This document shows, piece by piece, positions 44,554 through 55,287 of a DNA stretch of 64,000 bases; within the stretch, counting starts at the first letter, position 1, and each line of letters opens with the position of its first letter. The DNA lies in contig CANQPL010000004.1 of the NCBI GenBank assembly GCA_947625735.1, positions 56,681 to 120,680 of the forward strand. The letters are read 5' to 3'. A program made the translations under genes and the position numbers. This stretch comes from an uncultured Clostridia bacterium. GTDB taxonomy: Bacteria; Bacillota; Clostridia; Oscillospirales; Ruminococcaceae. The notes beneath the pieces are model-generated. The model did no database searches. It was not told the origin of the DNA and was given only the letters and a program-made list of their open reading frames with translations.

Positions 44554-44629
44554 TATCGTGAAAATAAAAGTATCTGTTGCGTATGCTTAATTTGTAAAGG
44601 CAGCAGAAAATTGTTTTTTTACAAATTTA

Positions 44630-44643
44630 TGCAAACGATTACA
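44630..44643 (+). promoter_or_regulatory. LacI/CcpA-type operator in the leader of the solute-binding protein gene
   Basis: TGCAAACGATTACA fits the cre consensus TGWNANCGNTNWCA at all fixed positions but one (C at the first W). It sits downstream of the promoter, where a repressor would block elongation. Confidence 0.5.
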
Positions 44644-44667
44644 ATAATAAAAAAGGAGGAAATAAGA

Positions 44668-46047
44668 GTGATAAACTATAAGAAAAGCTTAGCGGCTTGT
44701 ATGGCGCTTTCGATTGCGGCGTCCCTGTCTGCCTGCGGCGGCTCGGGAACATCTGAAGAAGCAACTCCCGATGTAACTACCACTGCTGCAACCGAGTGGA
44801 CGGGCGACAACATAGAGGTCGAGGAAATGGAGGAAACTCTTGATGTGAATATTGAGGGACAGACTCTGACGTGGCTGGGCATTTATGACCTGAACCCGAC
44901 AAACGACTCCCCCGAAAGATCGCCTGAGCTTGCACTTTTTGAAGATACCTACGGTGCAAAGATCGTCTATCAGCCTACCACCAACGACAAGCGTTTTGAT
45001 GATCTGGCAACCTCTATTCTCGGAGGCACGCCACCCGATATTTTCGCATATGAATGGAGGAGCTTCCCATATGATATCTCCAAGGATCAGTACCAGCCCA
45101 TTGATTCACTTGTAAACTGGGACGATCCCAAATGGGCTGATGTAAAGAATACAGCATATAAATTCACATGGAACGGCGAACATTACATAGCTCCTCTGGG
45201 CTACAGCTTCAACGATACTCAGGTGCTTATGTATAACAAGACTCTTGTGGAAAATGAGGGCTTTGATGATCCGTATCAGCTTTATCTTGACGGCAAATGG
45301 GACTGGAACACCTTTGTGGATATGATGAAAACATTTGTTGAAAACGGCGGCGGCACCGAAAGATTCGGCATAGGCGGCTGGTGGGCGAATGCGTTCGTCT
45401 ATACTGCGGGCGACACTATGGTTACCTATGACGGCAAGACATTTACCAATAACCTGAGAAGCGCAAAGATCGAAAAGGCGCAGCTTGTACTGGAGGATAT
45501 CTTTAAATCAAATCTTATCAAGAGGGGCTGGATAGGCGGCGAATCGGCATTTACCGACGACAGTCTGCTCTTCTACTCCATGGGTACATGGGCGTACAAC
45601 GCAGCAGCGCAGTCAAGGCCCAATGACGTTATACAGATAGTTCCCTTCCCCAGGGATCCCGATCAGGATAAATACTATGTATCCAACAAGGTATTTGCAT
45701 ATATGTGGGTAAAGGGTTCGGAAAATGCCGACTGTGTAAAGGCATGGTTCGACTGCAACAGGACTGTAAACTACGAGGATACATATATTCAGGCAACAAA
45801 GGAAAAATTCCTTGCAAACAATCCGGGCTGGTCATCGGAAATGTATGATATCGCTATGGATTTCTATGATGAGGATAAATTTACACAGGCTTATGACTAC
45901 GGCTACGGTCTTAGCACCTATATGGCTGATACTCTTATGGGTCAGCTCTATGAGGGCATTGCCAATGAGCAGTTTGAAAGCTGGGTAACCGCAAGGGAAG
46001 AATATTATGCTATCGTTGACGAGGAGATAAAGGCATATAACGGCTGA
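44668..46047 (+). CDS. Extracellular solute-binding lipoprotein, family 1 (orphan, sugar type)
   Basis: 459 residues from GTG 44668 (AAAAGGAGGAAATAAGA before it). Signal peptide ends in lipobox SLSAC (Cys23), then an acidic Thr/Glu linker. The binding protein body shows LATSILGGTPPDIFAYEW, PLGYSFNDTQVLMYNKTL, GKWDWNTFVDMMKTFVENGG and FSYMWVKGSE-like (VFAYMWVKGSENADCVKAW) patterns of ABC sugar-binding proteins. Permease and ATPase genes are absent, so it must use transport components encoded elsewhere, or act as a scavenger or sensor. Control by a LacI-type regulator is suggested by the operator-like site in the leader. It ends at a terminator. Confidence 0.88.
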   Translation: MINYKKSLAACMALSIAASLSACGGSGTSEEATPDVTTTAATEWTGDNIEVEEMEETLDVNIEGQTLTWLGIYDLNPTNDSPERSPELALFEDTYGAKIVYQPTTNDKRFDDLATSILGGTPPDIFAYEWRSFPYDISKDQYQPIDSLVNWDDPKWADVKNTAYKFTWNGEHYIAPLGYSFNDTQVLMYNKTLVENEGFDDPYQLYLDGKWDWNTFVDMMKTFVENGGGTERFGIGGWWANAFVYTAGDTMVTYDGKTFTNNLRSAKIEKAQLVLEDIFKSNLIKRGWIGGESAFTDDSLLFYSMGTWAYNAAAQSRPNDVIQIVPFPRDPDQDKYYVSNKVFAYMWVKGSENADCVKAWFDCNRTVNYEDTYIQATKEKFLANNPGWSSEMYDIAMDFYDEDKFTQAYDYGYGLSTYMADTLMGQLYEGIANEQFESWVTAREEYYAIVDEEIKAYNG

Positions 46048-46086: not shown

Positions 46087-46121
46087 TCACGCTGCATTAC
46101 TTTATGCGGCGTGATTTTTTT
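46087..46121 (+). terminator. Terminator of the solute-binding protein gene
   Basis: Stem TCACGCTGCAT (46087-46097) / ATGCGGCGTGA (46104-46114) with one mismatch, then a seven-T run. Confidence 0.8.
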
Positions 46122-46186: not shown

Positions 46187-46215
46187 TTGACAACCCGGTA
46201 TTTTTTTGTTATAAT
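46187..46215 (+). promoter_or_regulatory. Consensus promoter of the giant repeat protein gene
   Basis: TTGACA (46187-46192), 17 bases, TATAAT (46210-46215), with about 80 bases of leader and a GGGAGGAATC site before GTG 46296. Confidence 0.88.
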
Positions 46216-46295: not shown

Positions 46296-49200
46296 GTGGA
46301 AATTTATAAGGACTATGACCGTTTCAAAACCGCTTGTGAGGAATTTAAAAGCGCATTTACCGAAAAGTATTTTGAAACGGGTAAGCTCTTCTGTCATCCG
46401 CTCTGCGATGATCTGATCTATGCGCCCTGTACGCCCGAGGAGGCAAAGACCAACGGTCCGGAGATCTGCCGTATGGGAGATATGCTCCTTATGAGCACTG
46501 ACGGAAAGAATTTTGAGCCGTTCAAGCTGGCAGACGCAAGAAAGATCGCCGAGGAAAACGGGTCGGTCTATATCACCGATCTGCTCTTTCAGTCTGCCTT
46601 TGAAGCACAGTGCTGGATGATCGACGGCAGGCACGACACTCTTATTATCAGTGAGGAGCATATGAAAAAGGAGGGCAAGCCCTATGCGCCCGTAACTCCC
46701 CTGACAAATGTGGTGCAGCATTTTAAAAAGATAAATTGCAGCTTTCTTTATACAAAGGGTACTCCCGAAAGCCCTGCGGTACTTGCCGAAAAGGATATAA
46801 GCGAAAAGCTCGATAAATTCCTTGACGATCTGCTTGAGGAGTTTTCAAGAATAGAATTTGTGGGTGAAGCAGAATTTGATATTTTCGGCAGCAGGATCAC
46901 CACCGATAAAAACGAAGCCCGCTGCATGGAGCTTGACAAGGGTCTTAGTATCCTTGATACCGTAAAAACCTCAATGCAGGCAAATGAAGCACCTCTTAAA
47001 GCTGCGGGAGTGGATTTCGATCTTCTGAAATACTCGGTCAAGCTGCTTATAAAAGCAGGTGAAAAATGCGGCGTGACCATTTCCGAAAAGGATCTTGAAG
47101 GCGCATCTGATGCCGAAGCCGTAAAGGAAAAATTCAGAAATCTCATCTCCGAAAAGAACGGCTACGGGTTTAAATATACACCCGTTGATAAAGAAAAGGC
47201 TCTTGCTGACATTAAGGCAGCCGAGCTTTCTGCAGCATCTCCCGAGGAGCTTAAAAAGGACGTGGCAGATCTTCTTAAAGTGCGTCCCGTCACGGGCGCA
47301 GTTTTCAACCTTGCAAGAGCAGTTTCTCCCGCAGATGCGGAAAATGTTGAGAACATCTCAGAATACTGGGGCTGTGAAGCATTAAGTGCCGAGGAGCTGG
47401 GCAAGTATCTGGATAAGTCATATATTCCCGAAGATGCAAGGGACGAGAATGGCAAGCTCATCTGTCCGGGCGCTCAGGCTCAGGTCATCTCCAAGGATAT
47501 TGAAACCGCAGCAGCAAGGTATAAAATGAAAAATCTTCCCGTACTAAAGGAGCTTTCCGACAGATGCGAGGAGGCGGAAAAGGCAAGCCGCACCTATAAC
47601 GGCACTGTATTTGCCTCTGCCGAAGAAATGGAAAAGGCGGTAAAGAACGAAAAGGAACTGGCGGAGCTTTGCGCCGATCTTTCCGTTCTTAACGAGGAAG
47701 AACTGAAAAAGCTGAGAAAATACATATATGATATGCCCCTTGACAAGAAAACAACGGGCAGATATTTGCTGAAAATAAAACTCGCTCTCAACGACTGCGA
47801 GGAAAATCAGTTAAAACTCCTTTGCACCGGTCTTACACTCAAAAAACGCGGAGAGCTGGAGGAGCTTAAAAAGAAGATAGCAGATGGCGGATTTGATGAG
47901 GTAGTTGCCGCACCCTTTAAGGCAATGATTAACGATTCAATTCTTAATGCCGATCTTAAAGAGCTTACCGAGATGTTCAAATCTATCCCCGACAGCTCAA
48001 AGGCGGATTCACTTGAAAAGGCTTTGGCTTCGGGAAAATATGACAAGATATTTACAAGGCATTTCACCGCCAAAATCGCCGATGCCCGTGACGGCTTTGC
48101 AAGAAAAGAGCTTGCAGACATCTGCAAAGATGTGTCCTCTGCTGCAAAGGCAGCACTTGACGATATTTCCAAAAAGCTTGATGCCGTAAAGTGCAGAGAA
48201 GCCCTTAAAACAACCTATAAAAAAGCTGTATCCGACAGGTACAGTGCTATTGAGGAGCAGGAGGCAGCCGAAGCGTTTGCAGGCATAAAGACTGCCGATA
48301 AATCTAAGATAGAAGAACTGAAAAAGATTATCGGATCGGGCAGATTCCGCAAGGATATCTGCGACAAATATTCTGCCGACATTGAAAAGCGTATTGAAGA
48401 GATCAATAATCAGGAATTTATTGACAAGTGCAATTCTATTCCCAAAATGGACAGAAAGGCGCTTGAAGAGATCACCGCAGAGCTTAAAAACGGAAAACAC
48501 GACGAGGATATTACAGCAAAATATCTCGGAATGGTTGACGCAAGAGAAAAGGAGCTTACAAAGGCTGAGATCGCCGATATGTGCAAGGATCTTGAAAATA
48601 TGGACTTTGCAAAGCTTGATGAGCTTGAAAAGAAGCTTGCGGAAAAGAATTATCCCGAAGATCTTACAAAGGAATATACAGATAAGATCGCACAAAGAAG
48701 AAAGGCTCTTTACAATAAAGAAGTCGATGACCTTTGCAAGAATATCGGTACAATGGATAAGCCCGCACTGGCAGAGCTTACCGAAAAGCTCAAAAACGAA
48801 AAATACGATCCGGAATACACGAAGAAATATTTTGCAGATATTGAAACAAGAATAAACAAAATTGAAAATGACAAACTCACCGCAATGTGCAAAGACGTTG
48901 AAAAGCTCAAAAAGGAGGAGCTGGAAAAGCTCTCTGCCGAGATCGGCAAACTTGATGTCAGAAAGGAAAATGCCGCTCCGTTCTTAGACAAGATTCGCAA
49001 GGCAGAAATAAGCCTGATGAAGAAGGAGCTGGAAAATCTCTGCAAGAATATAGCCAACACACCGAGAAAAGAGCTTGAAAAGCTCAGAGAAGCTCTTTCG
49101 GGCGGCGACTTTGACAAGGAGCTTTCAGACAAGTACATCAAGCAGATAGACGAGCGCACAAAGGAGCTTATCAAAAAGGAGCTTTCCGAGCTGTGCAAGA

Positions 49201-51056
49201 ATATTGCAGGTTCGCCCAAGGATAAGCTCATGGAAATGAAGCTCACCATAAACGACACCCCCGAATATGCTGAGCAGGGCAAGGCATATCTTGAACAGAT
49301 AGATACCCGCCTCAAGCAGATAGACAAGGCTGAGTTCGATAAGCAGATGGCTTCTATTGACAAGCTTTCAATGGAGGAGCTTGACAAGTTCACAGAAGAC
49401 CTTGAAAAACGCAAGCCCACTCTTGATGCAAAGCTCTACGAAGCGTCCGCCGAAAAGTGCAAGGCACGCAGAAAGCTCCTTGAAGAAACTGAGCTTAACA
49501 AGATCACCGAAAATCTTGCAAATGCAGATCTTGCGGCTCTCAACAATATGAGAGAAGCTGTTGCCGAGGGCGATTTCACTCCCGAATTTACCTATCCGTA
49601 TCTTAAAAAGATTGATGACGCTATCAGTGACCGTCACATAAAATATTTTACCAAGCTCACCGAGAAAGTCAGCGGTATGTCCAAAGCAGAGCTTGTGGTG
49701 CTTCTTGAAAAGATCAAGAAAAACGAAAATCACTGCCCGGACGATATGCTCCAGCGGTATGTTGGTAAGGTAAATGCTGAGATACGCAAGGCAGACAGCA
49801 ATATGCTCAGTGCCAAGTGCAAAAATATCGGCTCTTTCAGTGAGCATCGCAGCTATGAGCTTATCAAGGATATTCAGGAAATGGATATTGATGATGATAA
49901 CAAGAAGCGTTACATCAATCAGATAACTCTCCACATTGTTGATATGAAAACAAGGGAAAGAGATGCTTATGTTGAGAAGCTGAATCTGTCTATGGTGGAT
50001 AATTCGATCTCGGGCGGAAATAACTTCTATGTTCCGGGTATCTCCAAGACCTTTGAGCAGCAGTTCAACGCCTGCAAGTCATATGCAAGCATGGAGGAGT
50101 TTGAGCTTCCTGTACTCATCTATCTGATAGATGTTTCCAAGGCTGATAATTTCTATATGCTCACCGTTGAACGCTTCTACTTCAAGGGCAAAAATGCATT
50201 CGGAAATGTGGCTGTAGACCAGATCGAAAGATTTGAAGCAAAAGGCGGCGTGTTCGGTGCAGCAGCACTTCATCTTATTGAAAAGGACGGTAAGGATTCG
50301 GTTATCCCCAACGGACTTAATAAAAAGACCTCCGAAAATGCTGTTAAGGTACTCAATTTCATAGTAGCACTTATCCAGAAGGAAAGAGCAGCATCGAAGA
50401 TCAAGGAGGCAGAGGAGATAAGAGCCGCCGAGGAAGCAAAGCTCAAGGAGCAGGAGGAAGAACGCAGAGCGATCGAGGCAGCAAGGAAAAAGGCGGAAGA
50501 AGCTGAAAAGCCCGCACCCAAGCCCGAAGAAAAGCCTGTTTTGAAGCCCGAGGAAAAGACAGCTCCGAAGCCTGAGGATAAAACTCCTCCTAAACCTCCC
50601 AAGCCCGAAAACAAGCCTACCGTACCTATCAAGCCGATTAAGCCTATCGAGGTAGTTGTTTCCAATATACCCGAAGTAAAGCCTATCCAGCACCTTGAAG
50701 CAGATAAAAAGCCCGCACCTGCAAAGCCCGATGAGACACCCAAACCGGCAGCACCCGTTAAAACCGAAACACCCGCTAAGCCTACCGAAGCACCAAAACC
50801 CGAAACAGCGGCTAAGCCTGCGGCACCTATCAAAACCGAAACTCCCGCTAAGCCCGCCGAGGCTCCAAAGACAGAAACTCCTGCTAAGCCTGTCGAGGCT
50901 CCCAAAACAGAGGCTCCCGTTAAGCCTGCCGAAACGCCTAAACCCGAGGCACCCAAGCCCGAGCTTAAAATAAGGTTCTGCGACCAGTGCGGAGCAAAGA
51001 TCCCCAACGAAAAGGCTAAATTCTGCATGGAATGCGGTAATAAGCTGTCCCAATAA
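46296..51056 (+). CDS. 1586-residue protein with about fifteen 51-residue helical repeats, a PH-like domain and a C-terminal zinc ribbon
   Basis: Not recognised as a known family. N-terminal part (about 1-140) of mixed alpha/beta type; helical region to about 450. Residues about 451-1221 hold about fifteen 51-residue repeats: (K/E)ELxxLCKNI, then (L/M)xEL..KL, a turn Gx(Y/F)D, and a KYxxxIxxRxKEL helix, spaced by exactly 51 in the best copies, with a Cys in the first helix of many. Residues about 1238-1365 resemble a bacterial PH domain (MLTVERFYFKGKNAFGNVAV...). A short charged coil follows, then a Pro/Lys/Glu-rich linker of imperfect PAKPxEAPKTET repeats (about 1410-1555), and a zinc ribbon FCDQCGAKIP-FCMECGNKL (four Cys). 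No signal peptide or membrane helix. GTG start with AGGAATC. A GtrA-like gene follows 130 bases later. Confidence 0.8.
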   Translation: MEIYKDYDRFKTACEEFKSAFTEKYFETGKLFCHPLCDDLIYAPCTPEEAKTNGPEICRMGDMLLMSTDGKNFEPFKLADARKIAEENGSVYITDLLFQSAFEAQCWMIDGRHDTLIISEEHMKKEGKPYAPVTPLTNVVQHFKKINCSFLYTKGTPESPAVLAEKDISEKLDKFLDDLLEEFSRIEFVGEAEFDIFGSRITTDKNEARCMELDKGLSILDTVKTSMQANEAPLKAAGVDFDLLKYSVKLLIKAGEKCGVTISEKDLEGASDAEAVKEKFRNLISEKNGYGFKYTPVDKEKALADIKAAELSAASPEELKKDVADLLKVRPVTGAVFNLARAVSPADAENVENISEYWGCEALSAEELGKYLDKSYIPEDARDENGKLICPGAQAQVISKDIETAAARYKMKNLPVLKELSDRCEEAEKASRTYNGTVFASAEEMEKAVKNEKELAELCADLSVLNEEELKKLRKYIYDMPLDKKTTGRYLLKIKLALNDCEENQLKLLCTGLTLKKRGELEELKKKIADGGFDEVVAAPFKAMINDSILNADLKELTEMFKSIPDSSKADSLEKALASGKYDKIFTRHFTAKIADARDGFARKELADICKDVSSAAKAALDDISKKLDAVKCREALKTTYKKAVSDRYSAIEEQEAAEAFAGIKTADKSKIEELKKIIGSGRFRKDICDKYSADIEKRIEEINNQEFIDKCNSIPKMDRKALEEITAELKNGKHDEDITAKYLGMVDAREKELTKAEIADMCKDLENMDFAKLDELEKKLAEKNYPEDLTKEYTDKIAQRRKALYNKEVDDLCKNIGTMDKPALAELTEKLKNEKYDPEYTKKYFADIETRINKIENDKLTAMCKDVEKLKKEELEKLSAEIGKLDVRKENAAPFLDKIRKAEISLMKKELENLCKNIANTPRKELEKLREALSGGDFDKELSDKYIKQIDERTKELIKKELSELCKNIAGSPKDKLMEMKLTINDTPEYAEQGKAYLEQIDTRLKQIDKAEFDKQMASIDKLSMEELDKFTEDLEKRKPTLDAKLYEASAEKCKARRKLLEETELNKITENLANADLAALNNMREAVAEGDFTPEFTYPYLKKIDDAISDRHIKYFTKLTEKVSGMSKAELVVLLEKIKKNENHCPDDMLQRYVGKVNAEIRKADSNMLSAKCKNIGSFSEHRSYELIKDIQEMDIDDDNKKRYINQITLHIVDMKTRERDAYVEKLNLSMVDNSISGGNNFYVPGISKTFEQQFNACKSYASMEEFELPVLIYLIDVSKADNFYMLTVERFYFKGKNAFGNVAVDQIERFEAKGGVFGAAALHLIEKDGKDSVIPNGLNKKTSENAVKVLNFIVALIQKERAASKIKEAEEIRAAEEAKLKEQEEERRAIEAARKKAEEAEKPAPKPEEKPVLKPEEKTAPKPEDKTPPKPPKPENKPTVPIKPIKPIEVVVSNIPEVKPIQHLEADKKPAPAKPDETPKPAAPVKTETPAKPTEAPKPETAAKPAAPIKTETPAKPAEAPKTETPAKPVEAPKTEAPVKPAETPKPEAPKPELKIRFCDQCGAKIPNEKAKFCMECGNKLSQ

Positions 51057-51136
51057 TATAATAAAAACGTCCCAATGATCCAACCACAATTATGGACTTA
51101 ACGGATCAAAGGTATCAAAAAATAACTGTCATGGGT

Positions 51137-51159
51137 TTCCCGGGTATAATGTCCGGGAA
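51137..51159 (+). terminator. Hairpin between the giant protein gene and the GtrA gene
   Basis: 7-bp stem TTCCCGG (51137-51143) / CCGGGAA (51153-51159). There is no T-run directly after it, so it may be an intergenic processing or attenuation hairpin. Confidence 0.35.
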
Positions 51160-51186
51160 GCCTGTGCTGTCTTTTGTAAGGATATT

Positions 51187-51720
51187 ATGACTAAAAAATT
51201 TTTCAGAAAAATATATTCCATACTTCCCTCCCCCGCAGAAAAGCTCTGCCTGAAATACGAGAACGGCATTATTTATATTTTTTACGGAGTTCTCACCACT
51301 CTTGTAAACTACACCGTTCACTTTGGATTGAGGTTAGCATTTGCCGATCTACCGCCGCAGGACGCGCTTACATTCCAAAGTCTGATAGATTCCATGGCAA
51401 ATTCCGCCGTATCGTCCGCAGGCGCAGCTACGGTTTCGTGGATAGTTTCTGTCATTTTTGCTTTCTATGTCAATAAGATATTTGTTTTTGAGAAGAAAAG
51501 CACCGTTAAAGGTGAAACGCTGCGTGAATTTCTTACCTTTTCGGGAGGGAGAATTTTTTCTTACGGCTGCGAGCTTGCCATTATGTTCACCTTTGTGGAT
51601 ATGCTTCACTTCAATGAGCTGATCGTAAAATTGATGTGCGGCATTGTGGTCATGATCCTGAATTATTTTTTAAGCAAATTTTTAGTTTTTACGAAAAATA
51701 ACAAAGAAAACTCACGGTAA
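51187..51720 (+). CDS. GtrA-like membrane protein
   Basis: 177 residues with four membrane helices. The family patterns are YIFYGVLTTLVNYTVHFGLRL (helix 1), FYVNKIFVF and NYFLSKFLVF (helices 2 and 4). GtrA proteins are thought to move undecaprenyl-linked sugars across the membrane for cell-wall or exopolysaccharide glycosylation. No glycosyltransferase gene adjoins it here. The gene begins at ATG 51187 with AAGGA, 130 bases after the giant repeat protein. Confidence 0.88.
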   Translation: MTKKFFRKIYSILPSPAEKLCLKYENGIIYIFYGVLTTLVNYTVHFGLRLAFADLPPQDALTFQSLIDSMANSAVSSAGAATVSWIVSVIFAFYVNKIFVFEKKSTVKGETLREFLTFSGGRIFSYGCELAIMFTFVDMLHFNELIVKLMCGIVVMILNYFLSKFLVFTKNNKENSR

Positions 51721-52013: not shown

Positions 52014-54113
52014 ATGAAGCAGATGCCACAGGAATGGGAAGGCTTCATCGGCGGTCAGTGGACAAAGGAGATCAATGTTCGTGATTTTATTCAGAAGAAC
52101 TACACCCCATATGACGGCGATGAAAGCTTTCTCGCAGCACCCACTGCTGCAACCAAGAAGCTCTGGGACGATGTAATGGATCTTGCCAAGAAGGAAAGAG
52201 AAGCAGGCGGTGTCCTTGATATGGATACAAAGGTAGTATCCTCTCTTACCTCTCACGGCGCAGGCTATATTGAAAAGGATCTGGAGCAGATCGTAGGTCT
52301 CCAGACAGATAAGCCCTTTAAGAGAGCGCTTATGCCTTACGGCGGTCTGAGAATGGCTGAAAATGCGCTTGTTCAGAACGGATATGCCATTGACCCTGAG
52401 ATCAAGCACATCTTTACCGAGTACAGAAAAACTCATAATGCGGGCGTTTTTGACGTTTACACACCGGAAATGAGAAAAGCAAGAACTGCACATATCCTTA
52501 CCGGTCTCCCTGATGCATACGGCAGAGGAAGGATCATCGGCGATTACAGACGTGTTGCCCTCTACGGCGTGGATAAGCTCATTGAGGATAAGCAGGAGCA
52601 GAAGGCATTCTACACCTGTCCTATGACTGAGGAGAAGATCCGTGCAAGAGAGGAAATTGCTGAGCAGATCAGAGCCCTTGAAAACCTGAAGAAAATGGCT
52701 GAGATCTACGGCTGCGACATCTCCAAACCCGCATCTACCGCAAAGGAAGCAGTACAGGCAGTTTACTTCGGCTATCTGGGCGCAGTTAAGGATCAGAACG
52801 GTGCGGCAATGTCCCTCGGACGAACATCTACATTCCTTGATATCTATTTTGAAAGAGATTTTGCAAAGGGTATCATCACCGAGGAACAGGCACAGGAAAT
52901 AATCGACCACTTCATTATGAAGCTGCGTCTCGTTCGTTTTGCAAGAACTCCCGAGTACAATGCCCTGTTCTCAGGCGATCCTCAGTGGGTAACCGAGTCC
53001 CTTGGCGGTATGGGTATTGACGGCAGACATATGGTAACAAAGACCAGCTTCAGATATCTGCATACTCTTGAAAATCTCGGCACTTCTCCTGAGCCTAACC
53101 TTACTGTTCTCTGGTCCACAAGACTTCCTCAGGGCTGGAAAAACTACTGTGCTAAGATATCCATTAACACATCGTCTATCCAGTACGAAAATGATGACCT
53201 GATGAGAGTTACACACGGTGACGATTATGCGATCGCTTGCTGCGTATCCTCCATGAGAGTCGGCAAGGAAATGCAGTTCTTCGGAGCAAGAGCAAACCTT
53301 GCAAAGTGCCTGCTCTATGCGATCAACGGCGGCGTAGACGAGATCAGCGGCGTACAGGTAGCTATCAAGCTCAGACCTATCACCAGCGAGTATCTTGACT
53401 TTGATGAAGTAATGGAAAGATACGATGACATGATGACATGGCTGGCAGAGCTTTATGTAAATACACTGAATATTATTCACTATATGCATGATAAATACTG
53501 CTACGAAAGCCTCCAGATGGCTCTCCATGACAGAGAGGTCAAGAGATACTTCGCAACAGGTATTGCAGGTCTTTCTGTTGTGGCTGACTCACTCTCTGCT
53601 ATCAAGTACGCTAAGGTAAAGACTGTAAGAAACGAAAACGGCGTTGTAGTTGACTACATCATCGAGGGCGACTTCCCCAAATACGGCAATGATGATGACC
53701 GTGTTGATGAGATCGCTCAGGACGTACTCAACAGATTCATGAACAAGATCCGTCAGCAGCACACCTACAGGGGCGGCGTGCCTACCACATCAATTCTTAC
53801 CATTACATCTAACGTTGTTTACGGTAAAAAGACAGGCTCAACTCCTGACGGCAGAAAGCAGGGCGTGCCTCTTGCACCCGGTGCTAACCCCATGCACGGA
53901 AGAGATACTCACGGTGCTTCCGCTTCCCTCTCCTCCGTTTCCAAACTCAACTTCATCAACGCTCAGGACGGTATCTCCAATACCTTCTCCATTATTCCCG
54001 ATGCACTCGGCAAGGATAACGGCGTATTCCTCGGCGACCTTGACCTTGACAAGCTCAATGATTGTCCTTCCTGCGCTAATATTCCCAATATCAGCGACAC
54101 GGACAGAGATTGA
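52014..54113 (+). CDS. pflB: Pyruvate formate-lyase catalytic body, lacking the glycyl-radical domain
   Basis: 699 residues; converts pyruvate and CoA to acetyl-CoA and formate. The PFL barrel is complete up to the active-site cysteines in [17 protein letters not shown] (the CC pair), [33 protein letters not shown] and [13 protein letters not shown]. It then ends in a short tail ([17 protein letters not shown]) instead of the roughly 55-residue C-terminal segment with the radical glycine. That segment is encoded by the next gene. E. coli PFL is 759 residues; the two pieces here total 779. ATG 52014 has AGGAGG. It is strongly expressed in style (frequent preferred codons). Confidence 0.95.
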
Positions 54114-54135
54114 TTTTCCTTTAAGTTAATTTTGA

Positions 54136-54162
54136 CCGCATATCCCCTTGTGGGATATGCGG
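54136..54162 (+). other. Intercistronic hairpin after pflB
   Basis: Perfect 11-bp stem CCGCATATCCC (54136-54146) / GGGATATGCGG (54152-54162) with a 5-base loop and no U-run. Position suggests an RNA 3'-end stabiliser or processing site between pflB and the radical-domain gene. Confidence 0.65.
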
Positions 54163-54183
54163 CACAAAATAAATTGTAAGAGC

Positions 54184-54214
54184 GCCATAGAAGTATGGTT
54201 TATATTTCTATGGC
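54184..54214 (+). other. Second intercistronic hairpin in the pfl operon
   Basis: 9-bp stem GCCATAGAA (54184-54192) / TTCTATGGC (54206-54214), 60 bases before the glycyl-radical gene. It could adjust the relative amounts of the two proteins. Confidence 0.55.
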
Positions 54215-54273
54215 AAATATACACGAAAACGGTATATTTATCCGTTTCACCTATTTTGAAAGGAGTTTTTACT

Positions 54274-54516
54274 ATGGCAGCAAATGCACAGCAGGTAAGT
54301 AATCTGGTTGGTCTTCTTGACGGCTACGCTCAGAAGGGCGGTCATCATCTTAATGTAAATGTGTTTACCCGTGACACTCTTCTTGACGCTCAGAAGCACC
54401 CCGAGAATTATCCCCAGCTCACTATCCGTGTATCGGGATATGCAGTAAACTTCATCAAGCTCACCAAGGAGCAGCAGGATGATGTTATTTCCAGAACCTT
54501 CCATGCAGCTCTTTGA
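54274..54516 (+). CDS. Stand-alone glycyl-radical domain of pyruvate formate-lyase
   Basis: 80 residues. [28 protein letters not shown] and RVSGYAVNF (radical Gly) are the C-terminal PFL signature; [11 protein letters not shown] at the start equals the PFL segment that comes right after FSIVPNALGKD in normal enzymes. It thus begins where PflB ends, and has no N-terminal extension as E. coli GrcA (127 residues) has. Start ATG 54274 has GAAAGGAG; the longer ORF from 54148 is untranslated. Since pflB itself lacks the glycine, this is an essential second subunit, not a spare part. pflA follows in 3 bases and should activate it. Confidence 0.9.
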
Positions 54517-54519
54517 TGT

Positions 54520-55287
54520 ATGAAGGGTTACATTCACTCAACTGAATCATTTGGAACAGTCGACGGACCGGGTATCCGGTTCGTCGTATTTTTCCAAGGG
54601 TGTCCCATGAGATGTCTCTATTGCCACAATCCCGATACATGGAATTTTCATGCAAAGGACGGCGCGGGTACCGAGGTAACCGCCGAAGAAATTCTTGATA
54701 TGTACGACGGTGTAAAGGAATTTCTCAAGGGCGGCGGCATAACCTGTACCGGCGGCGAACCGATGGCGCAGATAGGATTTCTTACAGAGCTTTTTGAAAA
54801 GGCTCATGCCAAAGGGATACACACCTGTCTTGACACCTCGGGCATAACCTTTGACCCCGAACATACCCAAGCGGTTGACAGACTTCTTAAAGTCACCGAC
54901 CTTATCATGCTTGATATCAAGCATATTAACGATGAGGAGCATAAAAAGCTCACAGGTCAGAGCAATAAAAATATCCTGAGCTTTGCAGAATATGTCAGCC
55001 AAAAAGGAGTACGTCTCTGGATACGTCATGTAGTAGTACCGGGAATAACAGATAATCCCGTGTATCTTCACGAGCTGGGAGTATTTATTTCACGGCTTAA
55101 GACGCTCAATGCCCTTGATGTTCTCCCCTACCATGACATGGGCAAGGCTAAGTACAAGAATCTGGGGATCGACTATCCCCTTACCGAAACCGAGCCTTTA
55201 TCCAAAGAGGACGCAGCCAAAGCCCGTGACATCATAATGCAGGGCGTAAAGGACGGTCTTGCCGAGGCTCATAAACATCAGAATTAA
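54520..55287 (+). CDS. pflA: Pyruvate formate-lyase activating enzyme
   Basis: 255 residues, a radical SAM enzyme that abstracts hydrogen from the PFL glycine. GCPMRCLYCHNPDTW gives the CxxxCxxC 4Fe-4S site, GGGITCTGGEPM the SAM-binding GGE motif, followed by DTSGITFD and LLKVTDLIMLDIKHIN. Length is typical. Starts 3 bases after the radical-domain gene; its RBS is weak, so translation is probably coupled. Its target Gly is in the small gene upstream rather than in pflB. Confidence 0.96.
   Translation: MKGYIHSTESFGTVDGPGIRFVVFFQGCPMRCLYCHNPDTWNFHAKDGAGTEVTAEEILDMYDGVKEFLKGGGITCTGGEPMAQIGFLTELFEKAHAKGIHTCLDTSGITFDPEHTQAVDRLLKVTDLIMLDIKHINDEEHKKLTGQSNKNILSFAEYVSQKGVRLWIRHVVVPGITDNPVYLHELGVFISRLKTLNALDVLPYHDMGKAKYKNLGIDYPLTETEPLSKEDAAKARDIIMQGVKDGLAEAHKHQN

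Follow-up and report, generated by a model that had tools for sequence, protein, structure and literature searches.

Large modular scaffolds made of helical repeats are already a known kind of protein. Rods and solenoids of the spectrin, HEAT and TPR types are built from tandem helix-pair units, with no enzymatic motif in the repeats. Bacterial PH domains, represented in Pfam by bPH_1 (DUF1696) and bPH_3, share a seven-strand barrel followed by a C-terminal helix. The Zn_Ribbon_1 (PF13240) proteins of Firmicutes carry a terminal four-Cys ribbon, and elsewhere this ribbon is usually joined to membrane or small proteins. The 64,000-nucleotide stretch of DNA analyzed here (the window), which comes from an uncultured Clostridia bacterium of the Ruminococcaceae, contains a gene whose product, referred to below as the rod protein, is similar in part to each of these systems. 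It likewise has tandem helix-pair units without an enzymatic motif, a predicted barrel and helix of PH type, and a terminal four-Cys ribbon. Unlike the spectrin, HEAT and TPR types, its repeat has a period of 51 residues and does not consistently match the repeat families of Pfam or sequences in the PDB; its PH-like domain has a long rod before it and a helix with a tether after it, and its ribbon is carried behind a rod on a tether of 21-215 residues.

Searches of Pfam, NCBIfam, PHROG, PADLOC and PDB sequences used, in varying combinations, the whole protein and alignments of the head, the second region, the repeat pairs and the PH-like domain, and only the zinc ribbon rose above noise. The PADLOC models for anti-phage defence gave nothing at E up to 0.1, and no paper on this architecture was found in the literature. 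The family is undescribed in the libraries and literature searched, with its head and repeats matched to no named family. This agrees with an earlier reading of the sequence alone (the sequence-only reading), which had recognized no family, and the agreement holds for the head, the second region and the repeats.

The gene and the parts of its product

The rod-protein ORF (46296..51056, + strand) has 1586 codons, begins with GTG and contains no internal stop. A ribosome-binding site, GGGAGGAAT, lies at about 46281 on the + strand, and both the site and the GTG codon are kept in relatives of the same genus, which supports this start. Upstream, also on the + strand, an intrinsic terminator (46087..46114; an 11-pair stem and then a T run) ends the previous unit, and it is followed by a sigma-70-type promoter at 46187..46215 (TTGACA-17-TATAAT with an extended -10 TG, 12/12 match). 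Downstream, a second + strand terminator with a 17-pair stem lies at 51130..51166. By these predicted signals, in the order terminator, promoter, gene and terminator, the gene stands as its own transcription unit. The reverse strand opposite it holds many stops in the matching frame, and the antisense ORFs listed over the gene are, as the sequence reads, mechanical. The possibility of a frame-fused set of unrelated genes was looked at and does not apply, as full-length orthologues of the same layout were found in many species.

No operon or partner was indicated by synteny, in that no neighbor of the rod gene was conserved between genera; the absence of a neighboring partner, a GtrA-like gene apart, had been noted from the sequence. 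This GtrA-like gene (51187-51720), which lies downstream after the terminator, adjoins the rod gene here and in a single close relative only, and for this reason it is not considered a partner. Just upstream of the rod gene, 44611-46047 encodes a 478-aa solute-binding-lipoprotein-like protein with a codon adaptation of 0.730 and only a weak TPR match in Pfam. Pyruvate formate-lyase stands beside the rod gene in part of the genus only. In the window this enzyme is split (52014-54516): a 699-aa body retains no more of the glycine-radical domain than positions 2-49, and the remainder (45-106, with RVSGYAVNF) is encoded by a small ORF apart from it, which has a ribosome-binding site of its own, begins with an ATG near 54274 and ends at 54516. 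A radical-SAM activase (54520-55287) directly follows this small ORF. The same split was observed in all eight genomes searched from the genus and in one genome each of three further genera, whereas others have an intact enzyme, and no paper on a split pyruvate formate-lyase was found in the literature.

The N-terminal head domain (residues 1-262; 46296..47081, +) carries the conserved motifs ICRMxDMLLMS, WMIDG and YAPVTPLTN. Its length is 262-264 residues in all 24 family members, and together with the zinc ribbon it is the most conserved part of the protein. A kinship with SseB (PF07179) was suspected from the predicted topology of the head and was rejected, with no Pfam match and an hhalign probability of 0.2% against SseB relatives. 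The head is followed by a second N-terminal helical region (residues 263-452; 47082..47651, +), which ends in the motif RTYNGTVF. The AlphaFold2 model of residues 1-520, made from an alignment of two sequences, had a mean pLDDT of 40.6 and was unusable.

Behind the rod, AlphaFold2 and Foldseek suggest a PH-like domain at residues ~1268-1365 (50097..50390, +), in line with the sequence-only reading at the level of fold. The model has seven strands (E369-373 to E430-438 in model numbering) and then a helix (H439-499). Its confidence is modest (~60-80), and the likeness to the PH superfold holds at fold level only. Foldseek returned many PH folds (GRK2, Rtt106, TFIIH p62, and 3dcx of DUF1696) with probability up to 1.00 and E of 0.016-0.2; it also returned small phage proteins, with a target TM-score of 0.71, and a 'Bacterial PH domain protein' lower in the list. 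The Pfam PH and bPH models gave no match in 21 family members, and hhalign against bPH_3 members gave a non-significant 0.2%, although the register looks right. Solved bacterial PH domains are described as forming oligomeric rings (PMC2817789), and by analogy with the domains described there, PH-driven assembly of the rod protein is plausible.

The C-terminal part consists of a charged E/A/K/R helix, seen in the AlphaFold2 model and in the sequence (residues 1362-1405; 50379..50510, +), a linker of Pro, Lys and Ala (residues 1405-1556; 50508..50963, +), and the predicted zinc ribbon (CDQC...CMEC; 50964..51053, +), whose cysteines follow the pattern C-x2-C-x11-C-x2-C at residues 1562-1580. These two CxxC knuckles were present in 24/24 family members, as expected for the terminal ribbon already noticed in the sequence; Pfam Zn_Ribbon_1 matched with E 2.7e-4, which is under the curated cut-off of 25 bits. 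Neither a signal peptide nor a membrane segment or wall anchor was found, the N-terminus is charged, and the maximum Kyte-Doolittle value over 19 residues is 1.11, with no membrane helix. The rod protein is thus probably intracellular. The lack of a signal peptide and membrane helix had been read correctly from the sequence, and the surface role proposed beside it was not borne out.

The 51-residue units and the length of the rod

The sequence-only reading of about fifteen 51-residue units agreed with the profile HMM, autocorrelation and AlphaFold2. The profile HMM placed fifteen units at residues 454-1211 (47655..49928, +) with bit scores of 21-56, and their spacing is 51 residues in 11 of the 14 steps, the other steps being 49, 53 and 53. 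Autocorrelation over residues 420-1190 peaked at lags of 51, 102 and 153 (z = 14.2, 10.5 and 10.2 vs shuffles). In the AlphaFold2 model of residues 905-1410, made with one orthologue, helices of ~26 and ~13 residues alternate with a pLDDT of mostly 75-92, and therefore one unit corresponds to a helix pair; the pTM of 0.37 means that this model does not fix the global shape of the rod. The repeated Cys of the 'LCKNI' helix, also remarked on from the sequence, occurs in 60% of 412 units across the family. Where it is absent, F, T, M, V or I mostly stands in its place, and this Cys is therefore probably a buried core residue rather than a ligand. A search of 41 genomes for the repeat unit turned up no other protein that carries it. 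Repeat-pair alignments gave scattered weak and inconsistent matches to unrelated families of helical proteins, the best of which had E 1.5e-5 and was seen in 4 of 35 members, and the best PDB sequence match to the repeats was a DUF305 protein with E 0.0076.

The unit number is 15 in every complete member of the genus and 9, 12, 15 or 17 in other genera. Among the 24 family members, the rod varies from 456 to 863 residues and changes in steps, whereas the linker, at 21-215 residues, drifts freely. Across most of the genus, a unit shares 54-65% identity with the unit of the same number and 18-20% with other units. The same-number unit was the best match for 14-15 of the 15 units in three species, and for fewer in the most divergent ones. 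Between genera, the first unit was matched, as were the last six in the comparison with the 17-unit form, and the middle was unmatched. As judged from these alignments, length changes come as gains or losses of whole central units, with both rod ends largely orthologous across genera. Although the unit copies are alike as protein, their DNA is only ~63-85% identical over short stretches, so that the array is no recent tandem expansion. Together with the higher identity of orthologous units, this indicates that each unit is individually maintained.

Distribution, expression and selection

Within the genus, 17 of 20 genomes contain a match to the rod gene, and the three without one are 69%, 72% and 86% complete. 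In the host family, the gene occurs in 22/299 genomes and in 7 of the 126 sampled genera. Outside the family, head-profile searches of the order (345 genomes) and the phylum (399 genomes) found none, and no homologues were found in phages, plasmids or viral contigs. All holders belong to a single branch of bacteria from gut and rumen, relatives of Ruminococcus. On the rpoB tree, 15 holders and 14 non-holders require a single change (support 81/97); when presence was shuffled, the mean was 10 changes, and none of 500 shuffles was as low as one. Because the holders form one branch on this tree, a single origin followed by vertical descent is the simplest account of the gene. A link to the cellulosome was considered and rejected, as dockerin numbers do not track gene presence. 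The sister genomes without the rod gene, G024 and G062, contain 88 and 70 dockerin domains, and the searched holders 0-9.

Twelve of the 24 family members have a perfect (12/12) promoter within 220 nt of the start, and five more have an 11/12 match. Across these loci (508 kb, both strands), perfect promoters numbered 42, with those of the family members included. The codon adaptation index of the rod gene, with rpoB as reference, is 0.718, the third highest of 23 window genes (rpoB 0.762). Promoter and codon usage together suggest that the rod protein is probably abundant and highly expressed. In close species pairs, dN/dS was 0.08-0.10 overall and 0.07-0.12 in the repeats, values that indicate strong purifying selection on the gene.

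Possible roles of the rod protein

We consider the chances about even that the rod protein is an abundant cytoplasmic scaffold or adaptor of rod type belonging to one Ruminococcaceae-type clade, because it combines a conserved head, a rod of fixed unit number, a PH-like domain and a tethered ribbon with no membrane segment. The scaffolding role is read from the domain layout only. Of the scaffold or surface/ruler layout proposed earlier, the scaffold part stands as the likeliest class, given a many-domain layout without a catalytic family match, and the surface part does not, given the lack of a signal peptide or membrane segment. In such a scaffold, the conserved head would bind one partner, and the helical units would act as a semi-rigid spacer with a length fixed within the lineage. 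The PH-like domain might serve in oligomerization or in docking to membrane or protein, and with the zinc ribbon on its flexible tether it may bind a second partner. Against this, no gene neighbor is conserved between genera, and the head might prove to be an enzyme from a family not seen so far.

If the ribbon and the basic Pro/Lys linker bound RNA, DNA or the transcription or translation machinery, with the rod reaching another site, the protein would be associated with nucleic acids or ribosomes. The linker is indeed basic (pI 9.2) and the ribbon is, together with the head, the most conserved segment, but the head and the rod both have acidic pI values (4.8-5.7) and no nucleic-acid-binding domain was found. 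Short zinc ribbons of this type are also common in proteins without a nucleic-acid role, and we regard such an association as rather unlikely. A cytoskeleton-like role linked to the envelope or division, in which the PH-like domain would attach to the inner membrane face or build rings, with cross-linked rods setting spacing or stiffness, also seems fairly improbable. The PH-like fold has a precedent in the rings described for bacterial PH domains (PMC2817789), and the fixed unit number in the genus and the apparently high expression would suit such a structure; however, no membrane segment was found, division and wall genes are not consistently linked to the rod gene, and most of the host family lacks the protein.

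The dense invariant motifs and constant length of the head might instead suggest a ligand- or stress-sensing regulator, with the head as an enzyme or ligand-binding domain and the rod only as a relay. Most of the invariants are hydrophobic or structural residues, though, and they form no recognizable catalytic set, and the relation to SseB was not found, so that a regulator of this kind appears very unlikely. As for a ruler, the term is allowed only in the sense of a clade-specific spacer length, and the constant unit number of the genus, with changes between genera by whole middle units, fits a spacer of defined length. The bolder proposal, a lineage-specific cytoplasmic spacer or ruler system in which the unit number of an abundant protein with private repeats, altered only by whole central units, fixes the distance between two cellular structures, is distinctly unlikely.

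The rod gene is a large gene without a described family; its promoter and codon usage are those of a highly expressed gene, and it is kept under strong purifying selection across its clade. Its unit numbers, which differ between genera and are constant in this genus, may provide a natural series in which the effect of rod length could be tested in a bacterial rod protein.
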